Shown: positions 4,421-12,145, numbered from the stretch's first letter. The stretch: DNA of 64,000 nucleotides from Sulfurovum indicum (GCF_014931715.1 NZ_CP063164.1:1550001-1614000); one strand, 5' to 3'. The notes: a model not told the origin generated them from the letters alone. Translations and numbers: made by a program.

Positions 4421-5724
4421 GCGTTGTATCCTTTACTATGATGATCGTTCTTATACTGTTTTAGATCCACATGTTCTGTATCGATATTGAACATCTTCTT
4501 AACCGCTTCGATACAGTTGGCATTCTTTTTCTCTGTGGAGGAGGCTCTGAGATTCTGCGTCGGATCATGCAGAAACCGGTTGAACATCTGTTCTGCCATC
4601 TTTCGCATATTTTTCTCATACTCTTTGGGTACAAATCCTTTTTTCAGTGCCCTTGCCATCTCTTTTTCAATCGCTTCAGAAACATGCTCCCGCATCTGTT
4701 TGATAACCGGTTCTATAGAGAGTGCTCTCAGCCATGTATAGAACTCATCTGTATACCGCTTGACTATCTCTGTTGCACGAATAGCCTGCTCCTGACGCAT
4801 GGCATGGTTTTCATTGGAGATACTGCGCAGATCATCAATGCGGAAAAGCTCTAATTTTGGAAGATCCATATCAGCGATATCTCTTGGGATTGCCATGTCA
4901 AACCAGTGTCTTGGCAGTGTTTCATTTTCTATCATCTCCTGTGTAATAACAGGGTCAGATGATGATGTAGCAGAAAAAAGCAGTCGATAGCGGTTAATAT
5001 ACTTTGGAAGATTCTCCATTGTATCGGCTTTGACATTCTCCCCCAGATTGTCTGCAACACGCTGTACTTTCTCAAGGTCACGCCCTATCAGCACAACATC
5101 ACACCCTACTCTAAGCAGATGTTTGGCAGCCAGTACCCCCATCTCTCCTGCACCTACAACAATACCCTTCATCCCCTGAATATTGTCTCCAAGCAGTTTG
5201 TGTGCCTGGGCAACAGCTACTGAAGCGATAGAAACAGGGTTTTGGGAGATGTTGGTAGCATTTCTCACTTCTGCTGCACATTTGACAGCATAAGAGATGA
5301 CACGGTTAAGCTTGCGCCCCGCCGTACCGTTTTGAAAAGAGAGTTTGAAGGCATCTTTGACCTGTCCTGTAATCTGTGACTCTCCCACAACCAGAGAGTC
5401 TAAAGAAGAGACAACCGAAAAGATATGCTCAATCGCCTCTTCATCATCGTAACGTTTAGCTGTATTCTTAAGCTCATAAAAACTTAAATCACTCTTCTGG
5501 CTCATTAATCCGAGCACTGCATGAAAACTGGAAAAGTTGTCCCGTGTTGCAAGTATGATCTCCACACGGTTGCAGGTTGAAACAATGAACACTTCATGAA
5601 TGAACTCAAAATGAGTCAATTGGTCAAGAATGGTCTTCACCTCTTCATGATTGGCAAATGCCAGCTTCTCACGCATCATCAGCTCACAGTTCTTATGCGA
5701 AAAACTTACTACCTGGTAGTACAT
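4417..5724 (-). CDS. hemA: Glutamyl-tRNA reductase
   Basis: Reduces Glu-tRNA(Glu) to glutamate-1-semialdehyde, the committed step of C5-pathway tetrapyrrole synthesis. The catalytic cysteine is in [10 protein letters not shown] (about C51). The NADPH-binding domain follows with [17 protein letters not shown] near residue 185, and a C-terminal helical dimerisation domain ends the 435-aa protein. The ATG shares one base with the ispB stop (TAATG), and the 3' end overlaps proS by 4 bp. The shared operon supplies haem and the prenyl side chain of quinones, both needed for respiration. Confidence 0.98.
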
Positions 5725-6620
5725 TAAAACTCCCTGTCAATCATTTCCATAGCAATTTCCGAGAGAGCATCTTCTCCAAGAGCATTCATCAGCTCTACTG
5801 CCTCATCAATGAGCTCTCTTGCCTGTGCATGACACTTGATCAGTATCTGCTTCTCTTCCATCTGATGCATGATCCACATCTGTTCTTTGGGATCAAGCAC
5901 TTTTTTATGCAGTGATCGAAGTTTCTTCCTGTCAGTATCATCCAGAGTTTCATAGAGATAGATATATGGCAGTGTCGTTTTCCCTTCAACAAAATCATGC
6001 AGTGCAGGTTTACCCAAAGTCGTACTGTCAGCAGTAATATCCAACAGGTCATCAACCATCTGAAATGCCAATCCAAGGTTACGTCCGTAGATCATAAACG
6101 GCTCTTTGGGTTTGCCTGCAAGCACTGCTGCTGCACCTGCACTCGCTTCAATAAGCGAGGCAGTCTTTTGGTAGATCATCTCAAGATAAACCTCTTTGTC
6201 CACATTGAAGGTTTTTGAGAGTGAAACATCCTTGAGCTCTCCAAGACTCAACTGTACAACGGCATTGGAGACGATCTTAGCCACTTCTGTGGAGATATTA
6301 TTCAGTTCAAAGAAACCTTTGGAATAAAGAATGTCTCCCAACATGATCGCAGTTTTGTTGCCGTACAGTGCATTGAGAGAAGGTTTGTTTCGGCGTATAT
6401 ATGCATCATCGATCACATCATCATGTAACAGACTGGCTGCATGGATCATCTCTACGATCGCAGCTGTTTTCACTACGGGGAGACTTCCTCCCGCTATTCT
6501 TAAAATAAGTTTCGCACGCAGACGTTTTCCACGGGGAAGTCTCGTATAGAGTGAAGCAACCTCTTTGTCGTTCAATTCACCAACAAACTGCTCTATTTTT
6601 CTCTCAACGGCACTCAACAT
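5724..6620 (-). CDS. ispB: Polyprenyl (octaprenyl-type) diphosphate synthase
   Basis: 298-aa trans-prenyltransferase that extends farnesyl diphosphate with isopentenyl diphosphate to make the menaquinone side chain or a related polyprenyl product. The first aspartate-rich motif is LLHDDVIDDA (about 67-72) followed by the paired arginines of YIRRNKPS; the second is FQMVDDLLDI. Product length cannot be read from sequence with confidence; the H. pylori counterpart in the same position is annotated IspB. Its stop overlaps the hemA start by one base. Confidence 0.93.
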   Translation of the reverse strand: MLSAVERKIEQFVGELNDKEVASLYTRLPRGKRLRAKLILRIAGGSLPVVKTAAIVEMIHAASLLHDDVIDDAYIRRNKPSLNALYGNKTAIMLGDILYSKGFFELNNISTEVAKIVSNAVVQLSLGELKDVSLSKTFNVDKEVYLEMIYQKTASLIEASAGAAAVLAGKPKEPFMIYGRNLGLAFQMVDDLLDITADSTTLGKPALHDFVEGKTTLPYIYLYETLDDTDRKKLRSLHKKVLDPKEQMWIMHQMEEKQILIKCHAQARELIDEAVELMNALGEDALSEIAMEMIDREF

Positions 6621-6634
6621 TACTGTTCCTTAAC

Positions 6635-6910
6635 TTATTCGCACTGTGTAACAATGTTACCTACAAGTTCAATGAAAATAGAAGCAACTCTACTGTCAAC
6701 ATCTTTATCTATGACCAATGCTTTGATCTGTGCTTCAAGCTCCTCATCCAGACCGCGCTCTTCAAGCATCTTTTCAGCCACAGCCAGGCGACGGAACACC
6801 TTCTCGATCTCCATCTCTACAATGTTTTGGTTAGCTGTTTTGGCAATGCTGAAATAGTTCTCTTTTGGTGAACTTACCATAAAATCATCTTCGTCATCAA
6901 ATATATTCAT
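6635..6910 (-). CDS. DUF2018-family small protein (HP0242-like)
   Basis: 91-aa, highly charged, probably all-helical cytosolic protein. It has no signal peptide or membrane segment. The block RGLDEELEAQIKALVIDKD and the terminal 'VGNIVTQ' resemble H. pylori HP0242, whose structure is an intertwined, knotted dimer of unknown function. It occupies the same position upstream of ispB as HP0242 does relative to HP0240. It is the first gene of this minus-strand operon, behind a clear TATAAT box. Function unknown; assignment comes from both sequence resemblance and gene order. Confidence 0.75.
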   Translation of the reverse strand: MNIFDDEDDFMVSSPKENYFSIAKTANQNIVEMEIEKVFRRLAVAEKMLEERGLDEELEAQIKALVIDKDVDSRVASIFIELVGNIVTQCE

Positions 6911-6946
6911 ATTCTATTCCTTATATATAGTCTTAACAAGGAAATT

Positions 6947-6952
6947 ATTATA
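6947..6952 (-). promoter_or_regulatory. -10 box for the DUF2018-ispB-hemA-proS operon
   Basis: TATAAT on the minus strand in the context GGCTATAATAATT, 37 bases upstream of the ATG at 6910. A perfect -10 without an obvious -35 is usual for Campylobacterota sigma-70 promoters. Confidence 0.6.
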
Positions 6953-6963
6953 GCCAAATAGGT

Positions 6964-8844
6964 TTAATCTATATATGTCTCTATGGGTTTTGGCTCTCCC
7001 AGATAGTATCCCTGTACATAATCGATCTCCAATGAACGTACTTCATTATATATCTCTTCACTGGAAACAAACTCTGCAACAAGTTTATATCCAAAAGTCT
7101 CAGAGAGCTTCTTAAGAGAGGAGAGAACGGCTTTTGTACGCTTCGGACTTGTCAACAGCTCATGGATCAGACTGCCGTCGATCTTCAAGATATCTACATC
7201 CAGTCTGATCAGATAATTGTAGTTAGAGTAACCGCTTCCAAAATCATCTATAGCAATTTTTGAACCAAAAGTTTTTAACTGCTGAAAAACCAGTGCAACT
7301 TCATCGTAATCCTGAATTTCGTGGTTTTCTACTATCTCGAAAGTGAGTCTGTCTGCAATATTTTTATGACGATATAGTTTTTTTGTGATAAGTTTCAGCA
7401 TATCTTCATTGTGGAGATCATCAAGATCCAGATTAATAGATACTTTGATCTCCGGGTACTTATCCAAAACATTAAAGACCTCATTGAGTACCAGCTTGCT
7501 CATCTTGATATATTGCGTTGTCCCCCTGATCGTATCCAGGAAATAGTATGGCGAAATAAGCTTTTGCGGATCCTCTTTGTCGATCAAACGTACCAAAGCT
7601 TCATATTTGTCAATTTTCTGTGTTTCTGTATTGAAGATAGGCTGGTATAGACAGGTGATACGCTGCTCTTCCAGTGCGTTTCTGATATAATCTATATTAT
7701 ATCTCACTTCGTCAGCTTCTATATCATCAATAATTTCCAGTCCGTTCTTTCCTCTGCTTTTGACCTTCAGAAGCTTTTCATCCAAGAACCTGTAGATATT
7801 ATCTATGGATTTTGCATCTTCAGGTGTGACAATGGCACTCATTGAAAGTGTAAGGGAGATAACCTCATTATCGACCAGAAAGCGTTTTTTGTTTAAACCT
7901 TTAAATACTTTTTCGGCTGTTTCTTTCAAGTTACAGCTTCCTTTTTCAACCACTGCAAAAAACTCACTCCCTCCAATATGTATCACTCGAGACTCATTAG
8001 GCAAAAGTTCTGTCATCTCTTCGGTAAACTGTTTCAGGACCCTGTTTCCGGAAGCATACCCGTATCGGTCATTGACCTGTTTAAATCCATCTATATCAAC
8101 CATCATAGCATCATACCTGTTGACCTGCCTGGTATCAAAGAACTCTTTCAGGTAGAGCTTGGTATATGCAGAAGTTACCGGGTCTATCAATATATTTTTC
8201 CTCAGTTTATGAAAACTGTATGCCAGATAGGCCAAGAAGATCAGACTGGCAATCAAAAACCACTGCATCAATGTCACAATAAATACAATGGGGGAATTAA
8301 AATCATTGAGGTAGTCACCATACTCTTTGGAAAGATCCATAACCAAGAGAGCCTGGGTCTGATGCTCTTTGACAATCGGATAAACCAGTGAAAGCCAAAC
8401 CTCTTCAACCCCTTCGGACTGTTTGATTATCTGTGGCTTCTGTGTCTCATAGACCCTGTCAAAAAGTTTGCTTTTTGGAAAAAAGATCGTATTGTACTCA
8501 ACAGGGTCTTCCAGTGTTCCATCAAGCAAAAAACGGTAATGTCCCTTTTTATCTTTATAAATGAGGAAAATATACTGAAACTCTTTTGTCAAGAAGGCAT
8601 GGAGGGTTTTATTAAGGGTATGCCTCTTCTGAGGGTGTGTCTCCAGATACGATTTAAGTGCAGCAGCCCCCGTTTCAGACTGAATATATTGTGCGATTCT
8701 CTGGGCATACTGTTTTGCTTTATAAATCTCCGTATTTTTAAGTTTCTCGGTACTCTCAGCGATCGAATATTGTAGATAGATCGCAAAGAGAGTCAGCAGC
8801 CCCATTATGAGAAAAATATATTTATTGGTATGCCTGGAGATCAT
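6964..8844 (-). CDS. Membrane sensor protein with degenerate GGDEF and intact EAL domain
   Basis: 626 aa. TM1 (about 9-27) and TM2 (about 186-212) bracket a periplasmic Cache-like region. The GGDEF domain follows, with its signature changed to GGSEF (301-305), so diguanylate cyclase activity is doubtful. The EAL domain (about 405-620) keeps YEALVRL (EAL at 425-427), FEIVE, IDDFGSGYSNY, the KID motif and QGYYLGEP, so it should hydrolyse c-di-GMP. The start codon overlaps the stop of the 151-aa periplasmic protein gene by 4 bp. Inference: the GGDEF domain may act as a GTP-binding regulator of the phosphodiesterase, with input from the two upstream envelope proteins. Confidence 0.9.
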   Translation of the reverse strand: MISRHTNKYIFLIMGLLTLFAIYLQYSIAESTEKLKNTEIYKAKQYAQRIAQYIQSETGAAALKSYLETHPQKRHTLNKTLHAFLTKEFQYIFLIYKDKKGHYRFLLDGTLEDPVEYNTIFFPKSKLFDRVYETQKPQIIKQSEGVEEVWLSLVYPIVKEHQTQALLVMDLSKEYGDYLNDFNSPIVFIVTLMQWFLIASLIFLAYLAYSFHKLRKNILIDPVTSAYTKLYLKEFFDTRQVNRYDAMMVDIDGFKQVNDRYGYASGNRVLKQFTEEMTELLPNESRVIHIGGSEFFAVVEKGSCNLKETAEKVFKGLNKKRFLVDNEVISLTLSMSAIVTPEDAKSIDNIYRFLDEKLLKVKSRGKNGLEIIDDIEADEVRYNIDYIRNALEEQRITCLYQPIFNTETQKIDKYEALVRLIDKEDPQKLISPYYFLDTIRGTTQYIKMSKLVLNEVFNVLDKYPEIKVSINLDLDDLHNEDMLKLITKKLYRHKNIADRLTFEIVENHEIQDYDEVALVFQQLKTFGSKIAIDDFGSGYSNYNYLIRLDVDILKIDGSLIHELLTSPKRTKAVLSSLKKLSETFGYKLVAEFVSSEEIYNEVRSLEIDYVQGYYLGEPKPIETYID

Positions 8845-9296
8845 AGTGCATCAACCAAAAAGTTTTTATACTCTTTTGGCAGAGTAATATTGTGTTTGTC
8901 CAGACGATTTTTAATAAACAACAGCTGTGACCGCCCTTTTCGCCAGTAGAATGCTCCTACCGCTTCTGGAGAAAGCTTCAAAAGGCGATAATCTGTCACA
9001 AACAAAACAGGTTCTCTCTCTTTGTTACGCATATTCTCTCTTTCTCCTCTGATCTTAGAGAGTGTCGAACGGTTTGTAACCAAAATGACATCTGCCTTTT
9101 CCGGATCCCTAGATAAAAAAATTCTTTTTGAATAGGCAAACACTTGCCTGTATTCCCTATCATCCGTAAACACACGTATCACCGGCTTAGGTACCAGTAC
9201 AGAAAATATCTGATGGTATATTTTCAGGGTACTCTCCCTTTCCAATGCATGAAGCTGCCCATACAACAGCATAAGAACAGTCAGGATCTTTTTCAA
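8841..9296 (-). CDS. Small periplasmic protein, YfiR-like in layout
   Basis: 151 aa with a signal peptide ending near LYGQLHA. The mature part alternates predicted strands and helices: VIRVFTDDREY, ADVILVTNRST, PVLFVTDYRLLKL, VGAFYWRKGRSQLLFIKNRL. The order of a 'D-ILV' strand, a '(V)LFVTD' strand and a late 'gR-QL-F' strand resembles YfiR/DUF4154 proteins, periplasmic repressors of the diguanylate cyclase YfiN. I see no close match, so this is a layout-level resemblance only. Four-base overlaps with the TonB receptor gene (9293-9296) and the GGDEF/EAL gene (8841-8844) make it the middle member of a coupled trio, which is where a YfiR-type protein would be expected. Confidence 0.55.
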   Translation of the reverse strand: MKKILTVLMLLYGQLHALERESTLKIYHQIFSVLVPKPVIRVFTDDREYRQVFAYSKRIFLSRDPEKADVILVTNRSTLSKIRGERENMRNKEREPVLFVTDYRLLKLSPEAVGAFYWRKGRSQLLFIKNRLDKHNITLPKEYKNFLVDAL

Positions 9297-11188
9297 AACA
9301 GATACTCCATCTCAATGGTAATACGCTGATCTGTCGGAGAGATCTGTAAAGGAGTCAGCAGGGTTGATGTTACAGGGTCAACTCTAAACAGCGTTGACTT
9401 TTTGGCTTTGTCAAGAAGATTTTCTCCTTTGAGCGTCAGAGTAAGTTCCTCACTGATATTCCAGGAGACTGCACAGGTCAGATCGAAATAGTTTTTCCAG
9501 TCAAGACTGTTACTGTGCCATACTATACCATTGTAAAAATCCAGTTTTTCATAAGCATTTGTCAAACTGAGGTATCCGCTTACATCTTCCAGTTTGTCTA
9601 AATTAAAAATATCTTTATAGCGTGCATAATAAAGCTGCATGTTCACTTTATTATTCAGATCAATATCGTAATCATAGTTCATGACTGCAAAGAAGTACTT
9701 TGTTTCTCCCGATGCATCCGGGGTATCATTTTGCACAAGTCCATCTTCATCCTGCATCATAAGCAGCATTAACCTCAGACGATAGTTCTCATCACTATAG
9801 GCAATTTCCTGGGTAATACCCAGTGTGGTCTGCGGTTCTATGTCCTGAAGATTTGAAATATCCAAATAACGCACAAAGGGTTCCAAAGCAAACTGGGTAC
9901 GATAGAGATACGCCTTATAACTCCAGTGCTCGCTGCTGTAGATATATCCTAAACGCAGCTGCAAAAGCGAATCACTCTCCACCCCTCCGTTTCTTGAAAT
10001 ATGATTATAAGATGCCCCTAGTGTCACAAGCTGCCGATCACTAAACGCATACTGGTCCTGAAAAAAGACCGAAGCTATCCTTTCTTCTGTAAAAGGAGAT
10101 GTTAAAGCATCCTCCCCATCCCTTTCAAACGAATCAAGCTTTTTGTACCTCCCTTTGATGCCAGCCGTAATACGGTTCCTTCCTATAGTTTCCTTGTAAG
10201 TCACCTCTGCCGTATAGGTACTGTTCTTGTATACACCGTTGAAAGTATTCGCACCCAGGGCATCTGACCAGAGCAAAGGCAGATCATCTGCCTGTACCAT
10301 TTCTGTTTTCAGCCAGTCATAGGCAAACTGGGCACGCCAGTGTGTATCAAAAACTATTCCATAATCCAAATGCAAATTGAGATAGTCTATTTGTGAAACC
10401 AACGGTGTGGCATCCCAACTCATACCCGCAAGGCTGTCAGTATCTTTTTTCATGACCTGCAGATGAAAGACCTGATCTTCCGTTTTTACATAAGAGAAAA
10501 GCTGCATACGTTCAAAGTCCCTGCTTAGAGGTGTAGCGGTTCCGTTGGCTATGGTCTCTCTTTTGGCATCGGTGTGAGAGAAGTTGATCATATAGGAAAG
10601 ATCTTTTGTTTGCTGTCCGTAACTGACACTTTGGGAGTTGTACCCCCTGCTTCCCTCTACAAGATCCAGCTTTCCTCCACTGTCTCGCTTCGGGTCCTTG
10701 GAGTAAAGAAAAATAGTAAGGTAGGCCGGTTCAACGGAGGTATCAAAAGAGGGAATAGCGTAATAAAACTCTATATGGTCAACAAAATCGATATTCACAT
10801 CCCCATACAGCATCAATCCGCTGCCCATCCACCCCTGCGTAACCTCTACACCATCCACATAAAGACGGACAAAATTACTTCTGTAAGGTTCCAGCCCTCC
10901 GGAAGTCAAAGGATCAGGAAGTCCGTATCTGTTTTCATGATAATAGATCACCGGTGTTGCTTTAAAAACATCCTTCAGTGTCTTGGCATGCATCTTCTCC
11001 AGTTTTTCTCTGGTAAAAAGTACCAGATGCCCTTTATTTTCATCAATGGTCTTCTGGCTCAAAGCATTTTTTTGATTATACTCCTGCAAGATACTCTCAA
11101 CATTCTCTGCATGCCCCACAGCTGTTGAAAGTAACCATAAAAATACCAAACTCCCCTTTACTACTCTTTTCTTCACGCAATATCTCAT
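9293..11188 (-). CDS. TonB-dependent outer-membrane receptor
   Basis: 631 aa. A signal peptide ends around residue 27 (AVGHA). A plug domain follows (about 50-170, with KLEKMHAKTLKDVFKATPV and VRLYVDGVEV), then a 22-strand-type barrel rich in alternating aromatic residues, ending in the terminal phenylalanine typical of BamA substrates (EMEYLF). The ligand cannot be predicted. It is the first gene of the coupled trio with the YfiR-like and GGDEF/EAL genes. No tonB, exbB or exbD lies nearby, so energy coupling, if any, is supplied from elsewhere. A transport role and a purely sensory role are both possible. Confidence 0.88.
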   Translation of the reverse strand: MRYCVKKRVVKGSLVFLWLLSTAVGHAENVESILQEYNQKNALSQKTIDENKGHLVLFTREKLEKMHAKTLKDVFKATPVIYYHENRYGLPDPLTSGGLEPYRSNFVRLYVDGVEVTQGWMGSGLMLYGDVNIDFVDHIEFYYAIPSFDTSVEPAYLTIFLYSKDPKRDSGGKLDLVEGSRGYNSQSVSYGQQTKDLSYMINFSHTDAKRETIANGTATPLSRDFERMQLFSYVKTEDQVFHLQVMKKDTDSLAGMSWDATPLVSQIDYLNLHLDYGIVFDTHWRAQFAYDWLKTEMVQADDLPLLWSDALGANTFNGVYKNSTYTAEVTYKETIGRNRITAGIKGRYKKLDSFERDGEDALTSPFTEERIASVFFQDQYAFSDRQLVTLGASYNHISRNGGVESDSLLQLRLGYIYSSEHWSYKAYLYRTQFALEPFVRYLDISNLQDIEPQTTLGITQEIAYSDENYRLRLMLLMMQDEDGLVQNDTPDASGETKYFFAVMNYDYDIDLNNKVNMQLYYARYKDIFNLDKLEDVSGYLSLTNAYEKLDFYNGIVWHSNSLDWKNYFDLTCAVSWNISEELTLTLKGENLLDKAKKSTLFRVDPVTSTLLTPLQISPTDQRITIEMEYLF

Positions 11189-11221
11189 ACTTTCCTACTA
11201 CTCCAAAATTCCTATTTTTTT

Positions 11222-11227
11222 ATTATA
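11222..11227 (-). promoter_or_regulatory. -10 box for the TonB receptor operon; AT-rich operator-like sequence upstream
   Basis: TATAAT on the minus strand (context GGATATAATAAAA), 34 bases upstream of the start codon. Just upstream of it lies ATGATAATGAG, which partly resembles the GATAAT repeats of Fur boxes. Iron control would suit a TonB receptor, but the match is weak and should be treated as a hint. Confidence 0.45.
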
Positions 11228-11329
11228 TCCTCATTATCATAAAGTATAATAATCTTCATTTATTTAGTCAATTATAACAAAAAGAACTCTATAATTTCAA
11301 AGCGTACCATAAATAAAGGTTATCCTAAT

Positions 11330-12145
11330 ATGTCAGAAACAGAAGCCATCCACCTTTTAACAAAAGAATACTCTCTTGTTCTTGCTGCCACACAAGAAGA
11401 TTTTCAGGCTGTGAAAAAGCTGAGAAACGATATTATTTCTCACAACTATCCAGAATTGGATCCTCAAGAAATAGAGCCTTATCTTTTCAGTCAAGATGAT
11501 GAGCAGTCATTCATCTATCTTTTACGACATCAGACAACAAACAAATATGTCGGTACGGTCAGGATATTTTTCATCAATGGATATACTCCTATACAACAAA
11601 TACCTATGCAAAAAGATTTTCATGTCACAAATATAGACTACTTAGTAAAAAATGTGCCTTTCTGTGAGATTTCCAGAGGTGCCCTTATTCACAATATAAC
11701 AGACTATAAACATTATTCTCAACTAAAACTACGAACAATGTTAACTTATGGACTAATGGTTGCAACACGAATTAATTTTATACTTTATCCATACACCATG
11801 GTTTTCTCCATCATGGAATCCTCTTTGCATCGTATTCTTAAAAGACAGCGTGTCAACTTTGAACAAATAGGAGAACCTGTAAATCATTATGGAACACGAA
11901 TACCATTTGCCATCGAAAGACAAAAGCTTTTGATAGAAACCGAAAATACCATGGGGCAGATCACAAGATACTACCTCAAAGAACTTTGCAAAAATCCGGA
12001 AGCATTGTGGAAATTTGTAGACAACAACCCTTATCTGAAACGTTCGGACATTCACCTTGACCGCATCTGCCAACTCTTCAAAGAGTATGGAGATGATGTA
12101 GATATATCACTTTTACTGGAAGAAGCAGTAAATATCGAGGCTTGA
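11330..12145 (+). CDS. FeeM-like N-acyltransferase (N-acyl amino acid synthase / exosortase-associated acyltransferase family)
   Basis: 271 aa, GNAT-like fold related to LuxI and FeeM. Family landmarks are an early 'YxLrydvf'-type acceptor region (VKKLRNDIISHNYPELD), a strand with GTVRIFF, the block FCEISRGALI (about 112-120) matching the conserved E-(I/V)-S-R motif, and GEPVNHYGTRIPFAIE matching the late 'hxGxRxP' motif. Known members transfer a long-chain acyl group from acyl-ACP to an amino acid amine. No PEP-CTERM or exosortase gene is visible. The gene is divergent from the TonB/YfiR-like/EAL operon and is more AT-rich than its neighbours, suggesting transfer. An AAAGG precedes the ATG by ten bases. 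Confidence 0.72.
   Translation: MSETEAIHLLTKEYSLVLAATQEDFQAVKKLRNDIISHNYPELDPQEIEPYLFSQDDEQSFIYLLRHQTTNKYVGTVRIFFINGYTPIQQIPMQKDFHVTNIDYLVKNVPFCEISRGALIHNITDYKHYSQLKLRTMLTYGLMVATRINFILYPYTMVFSIMESSLHRILKRQRVNFEQIGEPVNHYGTRIPFAIERQKLLIETENTMGQITRYYLKELCKNPEALWKFVDNNPYLKRSDIHLDRICQLFKEYGDDVDISLLLEEAVNIEA

Follow-up and report, generated by a model that had tools for sequence, protein, structure and literature searches.

A probable YfiR-type relay from an outer membrane receptor to a predicted c-di-GMP phosphodiesterase in Sulfurovum indicum

Can a receptor in the outer membrane govern the turnover of cyclic dimeric guanosine monophosphate (c-di-GMP) inside the cell? This question is raised by an operon of three genes in Sulfurovum indicum, whose genome is a single contig of 2.2 Mb, and our results suggest that the three products probably form a YfiR-type relay across three compartments, leading from the outer membrane receptor to a c-di-GMP phosphodiesterase. 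The window analysed was a stretch of 64,000 nucleotides (NZ_CP063164.1:1550001-1614000), to which all coordinates refer. The genes of the trio, from upstream to downstream, are the following:

9293..11188, minus strand: TonB-type outer membrane receptor with plug and barrel, 631 amino acids (Pfam matches; upstream position in nearly all of 80 loci)
8841..9296, minus strand: YfiR-like periplasmic protein, 151 amino acids, with a TTG start and a signal-like N-terminal segment (AlphaFold2 model and matches to YfiR structures)
6964..8844, minus strand: inner membrane sensor/GGDEF/EAL protein, 626 amino acids (Pfam domains)

The overlaps of 4 base pairs (bp) between these genes, described in the initial annotation of this DNA, were confirmed both at the receptor/small protein junction (TTGA, 9293-9296) and at the small protein/GGDEF-EAL junction (ATGA, 8841-8844). 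When genome contigs were scanned with an alignment, 175 relatives of the 151-amino-acid protein were obtained, and none when a single sequence was used; such relatives occurred in 138 of the 399 genomes of the order. The public-genome scan gave 80 loci, mostly of Campylobacterota and three of Aquificota, and in nearly all of them the gene for the small protein followed the receptor gene directly and was itself directly followed by an output gene; the exceptions were mostly short contigs and frameshifted receptor genes, plus one broken copy. Since both junctions overlapped or abutted in 69 of the 77 loci in which both neighbours could be read, the coupling of the genes is more than chance. The co-occurrence survey thus bore out the conservation of the three genes as one unit, the lack of which would, by the initial annotation, have refuted its proposal.

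The output genes were not of a single type. Among 75 loci placed on the receptor tree, the output was a GGDEF-EAL protein in 61, a GGDEF protein without EAL in 8 and a histidine kinase in 6, and the tree requires no fewer than five switches between output types, the receptor and the YfiR-like protein being retained. Pairwise distances of the receptor, the small protein and the sensor domain were correlated with each other (r 0.83-0.91) more closely than with the GGDEF part (0.66-0.74), a correlation to which shared ancestry also contributes and which is no proof of contact. The three genes could in principle share an operon with no functional link, the receptor importing a nutrient unconnected with what the EAL protein senses; the strict gene order in two phyla, the swapping of outputs next to a constant receptor and small protein, and the parallel cases with DUF4154 proteins described below all argue against this explanation and make it very improbable.

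The small protein had been likened to YfiR by its layout, and its predicted structure supports the comparison. The AlphaFold2 model of the 151 residues, built on 25 homologues, had a predicted local distance difference test (pLDDT) value of 92.8; a Foldseek search against solved structures matched it to YfiR (4zhu_B, probability 1.00, template modelling score 0.59), and VIA-align aligned 128 of its 151 residues with P. aeruginosa YfiR (4xjy; Z 9.2, root-mean-square deviation (rmsd) 3.8). The predicted model therefore has the YfiR fold over the whole length of the protein. It contains the following motif, whose W118, K120 and R122 are invariant in 66 sequences and sit in a predicted beta-hairpin:

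8931..8945, minus strand: W118-x-K120-G-R122 hairpin (family alignment)

At the level of sequence, hhalign aligned the profile of the small protein with DUF4154 proteins from the order to which S. indicum belongs at 62.5% probability (E 7e-5), in the C-terminal half only, and searches with the protein and its profile against the sequences of solved structures gave chance matches only. The mature protein contains no cysteine, so that the conserved cysteine pairs of YfiR (71-110 and 145-152) are missing. About one third of the homologues (L047, L051, L114, L131, L147 and others) have two cysteines approximately 18 residues apart, unlike the pairs of YfiR, and an alternative disulfide or a redox site is possible there.

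For the third gene of the trio, the domain models and motifs indicated a periplasmic sensor coupled to a cytoplasmic enzyme pair of which one half appears to be dead:

8284..8757, minus strand: periplasmic PAS/Cache sensor domain, approximately amino acids 30-187, between two membrane helices (AlphaFold2 model and structure match)
7960..7974, minus strand: GGSEF, a degenerate GGDEF motif, amino acids 291-295 (motif reading)
6991..7686, minus strand: EAL domain, its catalytic set E/N/E/D/D/K/E/Q complete (Pfam and motif reading)

The model of residues 30-187 was a PAS/Cache domain (pLDDT 89.9), closest to the extracellular domain of WalK (Z 15.4, rmsd 2.6, 142 residues aligned). The EAL domain scored 181.7 bits in Pfam, and its catalytic set was intact in the window protein and in nearly all of its relatives. 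The GGDEF motif was degenerate throughout the Sulfurovum clade and read GGEEF nearly everywhere else, mostly together with an RxxD inhibitory site. Because the GGDEF motif is degenerate and the EAL set intact in the Sulfurovum clade, the module of this clade seems, from its motifs, to be a phosphodiesterase-only device, and the output protein is predicted to be an active phosphodiesterase with a dead GGDEF domain, as the initial annotation had anticipated from the GGSEF motif.

The receptor was assigned to the TonB-type family by its plug and barrel. The Pfam scores of the window protein were slightly under the cut-offs (plug 21.2 bits, barrel 22.8 bits), and in the genome-wide search its Plug match was above the cut-off (24.8 bits). 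One qualification concerns the TonB box, which is a loose motif: by eye, none was recognisable near the mature N-terminus. In each of the genome's other four plug proteins, the signal peptide is followed by a sequence resembling a TonB box, for example LGEIIVTTA or LDPIVIGAD. The genome encodes two TonB proteins, so the receptor may still depend on TonB. No STN domain was matched in the receptor at E values up to 10, and the stretch before the plug is only about 30 residues long. At the place of the TonB box we found instead a motif of another kind:

11030..11101, minus strand: receptor residues 30-53, a conserved N-terminal motif (L34, L43, S44, T47 and G53) at the place of the TonB box (family alignment)

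The segment preceding the plug is ENVESILQEYNQKNALSQKTIDENKG, with the pattern L-x8-LS-x2-T-x5-G. Few parts of the receptor family are as well conserved (T47 and G53 each in 65 of 66 sequences, L34 in 62 of 66). Judging from this conservation, the YfiR-like protein probably docks at this motif. A second receptor family, with the N-terminal segment LLxxLxEAxxIAxxxxLNID, accompanies DUF4154 proteins in Campylobacterota (L195, L196, L206, L209 and neighbours).

The YfiR of P. aeruginosa acts in the periplasm as the repressor of YfiN, and YfiB sequesters it at the outer membrane (PMC3375315, PMC4655355). The operon of S. indicum resembles YfiBNR and its counterparts (AwsXRO, TpbB; Pseudomonas, E. 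coli) in having a periplasmic protein of the YfiR-type fold, an outer membrane partner, and a PAS-like periplasmic domain on an inner membrane c-di-GMP enzyme. It differs in that YfiB is a lipoprotein of the OmpA/Pal kind, whereas a TonB-type receptor is encoded here and no gene of the YfiB type was found in the operon, in agreement with the proposed replacement of YfiB by a TonB-type barrel; it also differs in lacking a DUF4154 match, the cysteines and the AAVVF site, and in having a predicted phosphodiesterase as output. We infer physical contacts, a direction of control and the sensing of a ligand by the receptor in the following terms. A ligand reaching the receptor would alter the hold of its N-terminal periplasmic segment on the YfiR-like protein; the resulting shift of this protein would alter the occupancy of the PAS/Cache domain on the inner membrane protein; and this occupancy would set the activity of the EAL phosphodiesterase and thereby the level of c-di-GMP. 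If control runs as in YfiBNR, the YfiR-like protein would act as the repressor, and its capture by the receptor would release the repression.

Several observations weigh against a relay of the YfiR type. The Foldseek E-values to YfiR were modest (best 0.013), and folds of substrate-binding proteins (6k1y and 3lkv; small ones, or parts of larger ones) scored as well as YfiR, for which reason the fold supports a YfiR function but does not prove it. The Pfam family DUF4154 (PF13689) was matched neither by the window protein, nor by any of 25 homologues, nor by any other protein of the genome; of the likeness to YfiR, the predicted fold stood, and the Pfam family match and the cysteines did not. 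In the output protein, a HAMP domain was not detected by the Pfam search, and the AAVVF site of YfiN, which is present in E. coli YfiN, was found in 0 of the 75 partners examined. This motif is the proposed contact of YfiN with YfiR (PMC3375315); because the partner lacks it, any contact of the small protein with the sensor domain must differ from that in YfiBNR.

The same fold matches suggest another function for the small protein, as a ligand-binding protein: the receptor would import a compound as a transporter, not as a signalling partner, the small protein would bind it in the periplasm, and the PAS/Cache domain would read the complex. Cache domains usually bind small ligands, which counts in favour of this proposal, as do the substrate-binding proteins 6k1y and 3lkv among the top fold matches. 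YfiR itself weakly binds Trp and vitamin B6 (PMC4887326). However, the receptor has no recognisable TonB box and the other receptors of the genome have one, which argues against energised import, and beyond the Sulfurovum clade the trio has no recurrent uptake genes beside it, the neighbourhood survey having found no convincing recurrent neighbour gene there at all. We consider ligand binding by the small protein rather unlikely as the main explanation, and the relay from receptor to phosphodiesterase is preferred; the initial annotation, which had proposed it, was mostly right in outline.

The relay does not stand isolated. Bona fide DUF4154 proteins were found in the same order of bacteria in operons of the same layout, namely receptor-DUF4154-GGDEF with overlaps of 4 bp (L195 and L196) and receptor-DUF4154-kinase (L213). 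In Pseudomonadota, in cases drawn from plasmid records, a TonB-type receptor gene and a gene of the YfiR family were followed by an EAL gene (Pseudoalteromonas, Caballeronia) or a kinase gene (Sphingobium, Indioceanicola). These operons share the three-gene order and the kinds of output with the trio and differ from it in having a bona fide YfiR, another receptor N-terminus and other sensor domains. As bona fide YfiR proteins occur in the same layout, the arrangement of receptor, YfiR and output is widespread and not peculiar to this genome. The Pseudomonadota operons were found as annotations only and not as a described system, and no paper on a receptor-YfiR system was found in the open-access literature (subscription papers lay outside the search). 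In two Pseudoalteromonas plasmids (L223 and L222), IS30 transposase genes were located beside the YfiR-receptor operons, one of them occupying the place of the receptor in L223.

Malone et al. (2012) described divergent YfiR-YfiN relatives with modular outputs, most of them without YfiB, and TonB is nowhere mentioned in the main text of that paper (PMC3375315). The lack of YfiB raised the question of where such systems obtain their signal; a receptor in its place would supply a chemically specific input, with the small protein as a possible general adaptor between outer membrane receptors and cyclases, phosphodiesterases or kinases. Two other known systems were compared. As in FecA-FecR-FecI and similar systems, an outer membrane receptor would signal through the periplasm to an inner membrane protein, but no STN domain was detected in the window receptor, no FecR or sigma factor is encoded in the operon, and the output is c-di-GMP turnover. 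LapD-LapG is alike in pairing a periplasmic partner with a GGDEF/EAL membrane protein. LapD sends its signal outwards and binds c-di-GMP without degrading it, in contrast to the window protein, whose EAL catalytic set is intact.

What would the receptor sense? A candidate arises from a gene divergent from the operon, and this co-inherited candidate signal synthase, which the initial annotation had missed, is what is new in the present analysis:

11330..12145, plus strand: divergent GNAT acyltransferase of the TIGR03694/LuxI/FeeM superfamily, 271 amino acids (profile matches and co-inheritance)
11189..11329, no strand: intergenic region between receptor and acyltransferase, with its best promoter-like site, an extended -10, at 11300-11271 on the minus strand

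The acyltransferase was present in 27 of the 29 genomes of the genus with the trio of this clade and in 0 of the 49 without it (78 genomes; Fisher p 6e-19, a value that ignores relatedness). The two trio genomes without the gene are fragmented assemblies, whose contigs seem to stop close to the receptor, and a genome with two trios (G430) had two copies. The neighbouring efflux pump, taken as a control, was found genus-wide, with or without the trio; regional synteny alone is therefore insufficient to account for the co-inheritance, and a role of this RND (resistance-nodulation-division) pump as exporter of a signal in the module was unsupported. Residues R32, D57, R78, E113, S115 and R116 of the acyltransferase, its putative active site, were invariant, a pattern that presumably resembles that of LuxI enzymes.

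These observations would fit a self-signalling circuit of the quorum type in this genus, in which an N-acyl product of the acyltransferase exits the cell, the receptor senses it and the relay sets the level of c-di-GMP; this is a refinement of the relay, and both can hold. In its favour are the distribution of the acyltransferase set against that of the efflux pump, the invariance of the putative active-site residues, the independent case described below and the production of N-acyl amides in Neisseria by a relative of the PEP-CTERM type (PMC9762135). Against it, physical linkage alone can give joint loss, so that one deletion of linked genes could explain the co-inheritance, and the genomes are not independent; most trio lineages elsewhere have no such gene nearby; and the enzyme assignment is under every curated cut-off. 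The TIGR03694 score was 69.9 bits against a cut-off of 111.95, the matches of the protein and its homologues to autoinducer synthase and FeeM were weak and under the Pfam cut-offs, and among solved structures its profile reached an acyl-homoserine lactone synthase (3p2f) only at E 1.8. The protein shares with the TIGR03694, FeeM and LuxI synthases the GNAT-type superfamily, E-x-S-R and other putative active-site positions, and differs from them in these scores, in the lack of an exosortase and in being tied to a receptor operon. We regard the circuit as a tentative proposal. Equally doubtful is its most specific element, that the N-acyl signal of a LuxI/FeeM-like synthase would be sensed by a TonB-type receptor with no recognisable TonB box and not by a cytoplasmic regulator. 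If true, a possible cell-to-cell signal would be tied to c-di-GMP control in Sulfurovum-type bacteria; and since the candidate signal-making gene is co-inherited, ligand, receptor and response can be tested together in this genus.

Promoter-like sites in the region scanned were no more numerous than in shuffled sequences, and the alignment of the divergent intergenic region contained no conserved operator. A role of the acyltransferase in PEP-CTERM sorting was discarded, as the genome has no exosortase (no PF09721 match).

In another lineage (L211), genes for an acyltransferase (7918-8475), a receptor (5867-7921) and a bona fide DUF4154 protein (5337-5870), all on the minus strand, form one overlapping operon, which is divergent from a GGDEF/EAL gene (8670-10628, plus strand). 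To judge from the sequences, the four functions have here been brought together independently, from other members of the families. In L142, a TIGR03694 acyltransferase above the cut-off (206 bits; 9015-9761, minus strand) is paired with a ThiF-like gene and convergent to another trio. A broken trio was observed in L041 (genome G021), in which the EAL gene is truncated, pieces of the receptor lie on both strands and stops interrupt the small protein; no acyltransferase was found in G021.

A heme ligand, hinted at by linkage of the trio to the HemA, IspB and ProS genes, was dropped as a candidate, this linkage being housekeeping synteny restricted to this clade. In the window, as in many Sulfurovum loci, the trio and the IspB-HemA-ProS genes are separated by a gene for a DUF2018 protein (6635-6910, minus strand). 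Finally, hemA is downstream of the trio in the window, and in L046, where the output of the trio is a kinase, a uroporphyrinogen decarboxylase gene (8376-9428, minus strand) lies immediately upstream of the trio.

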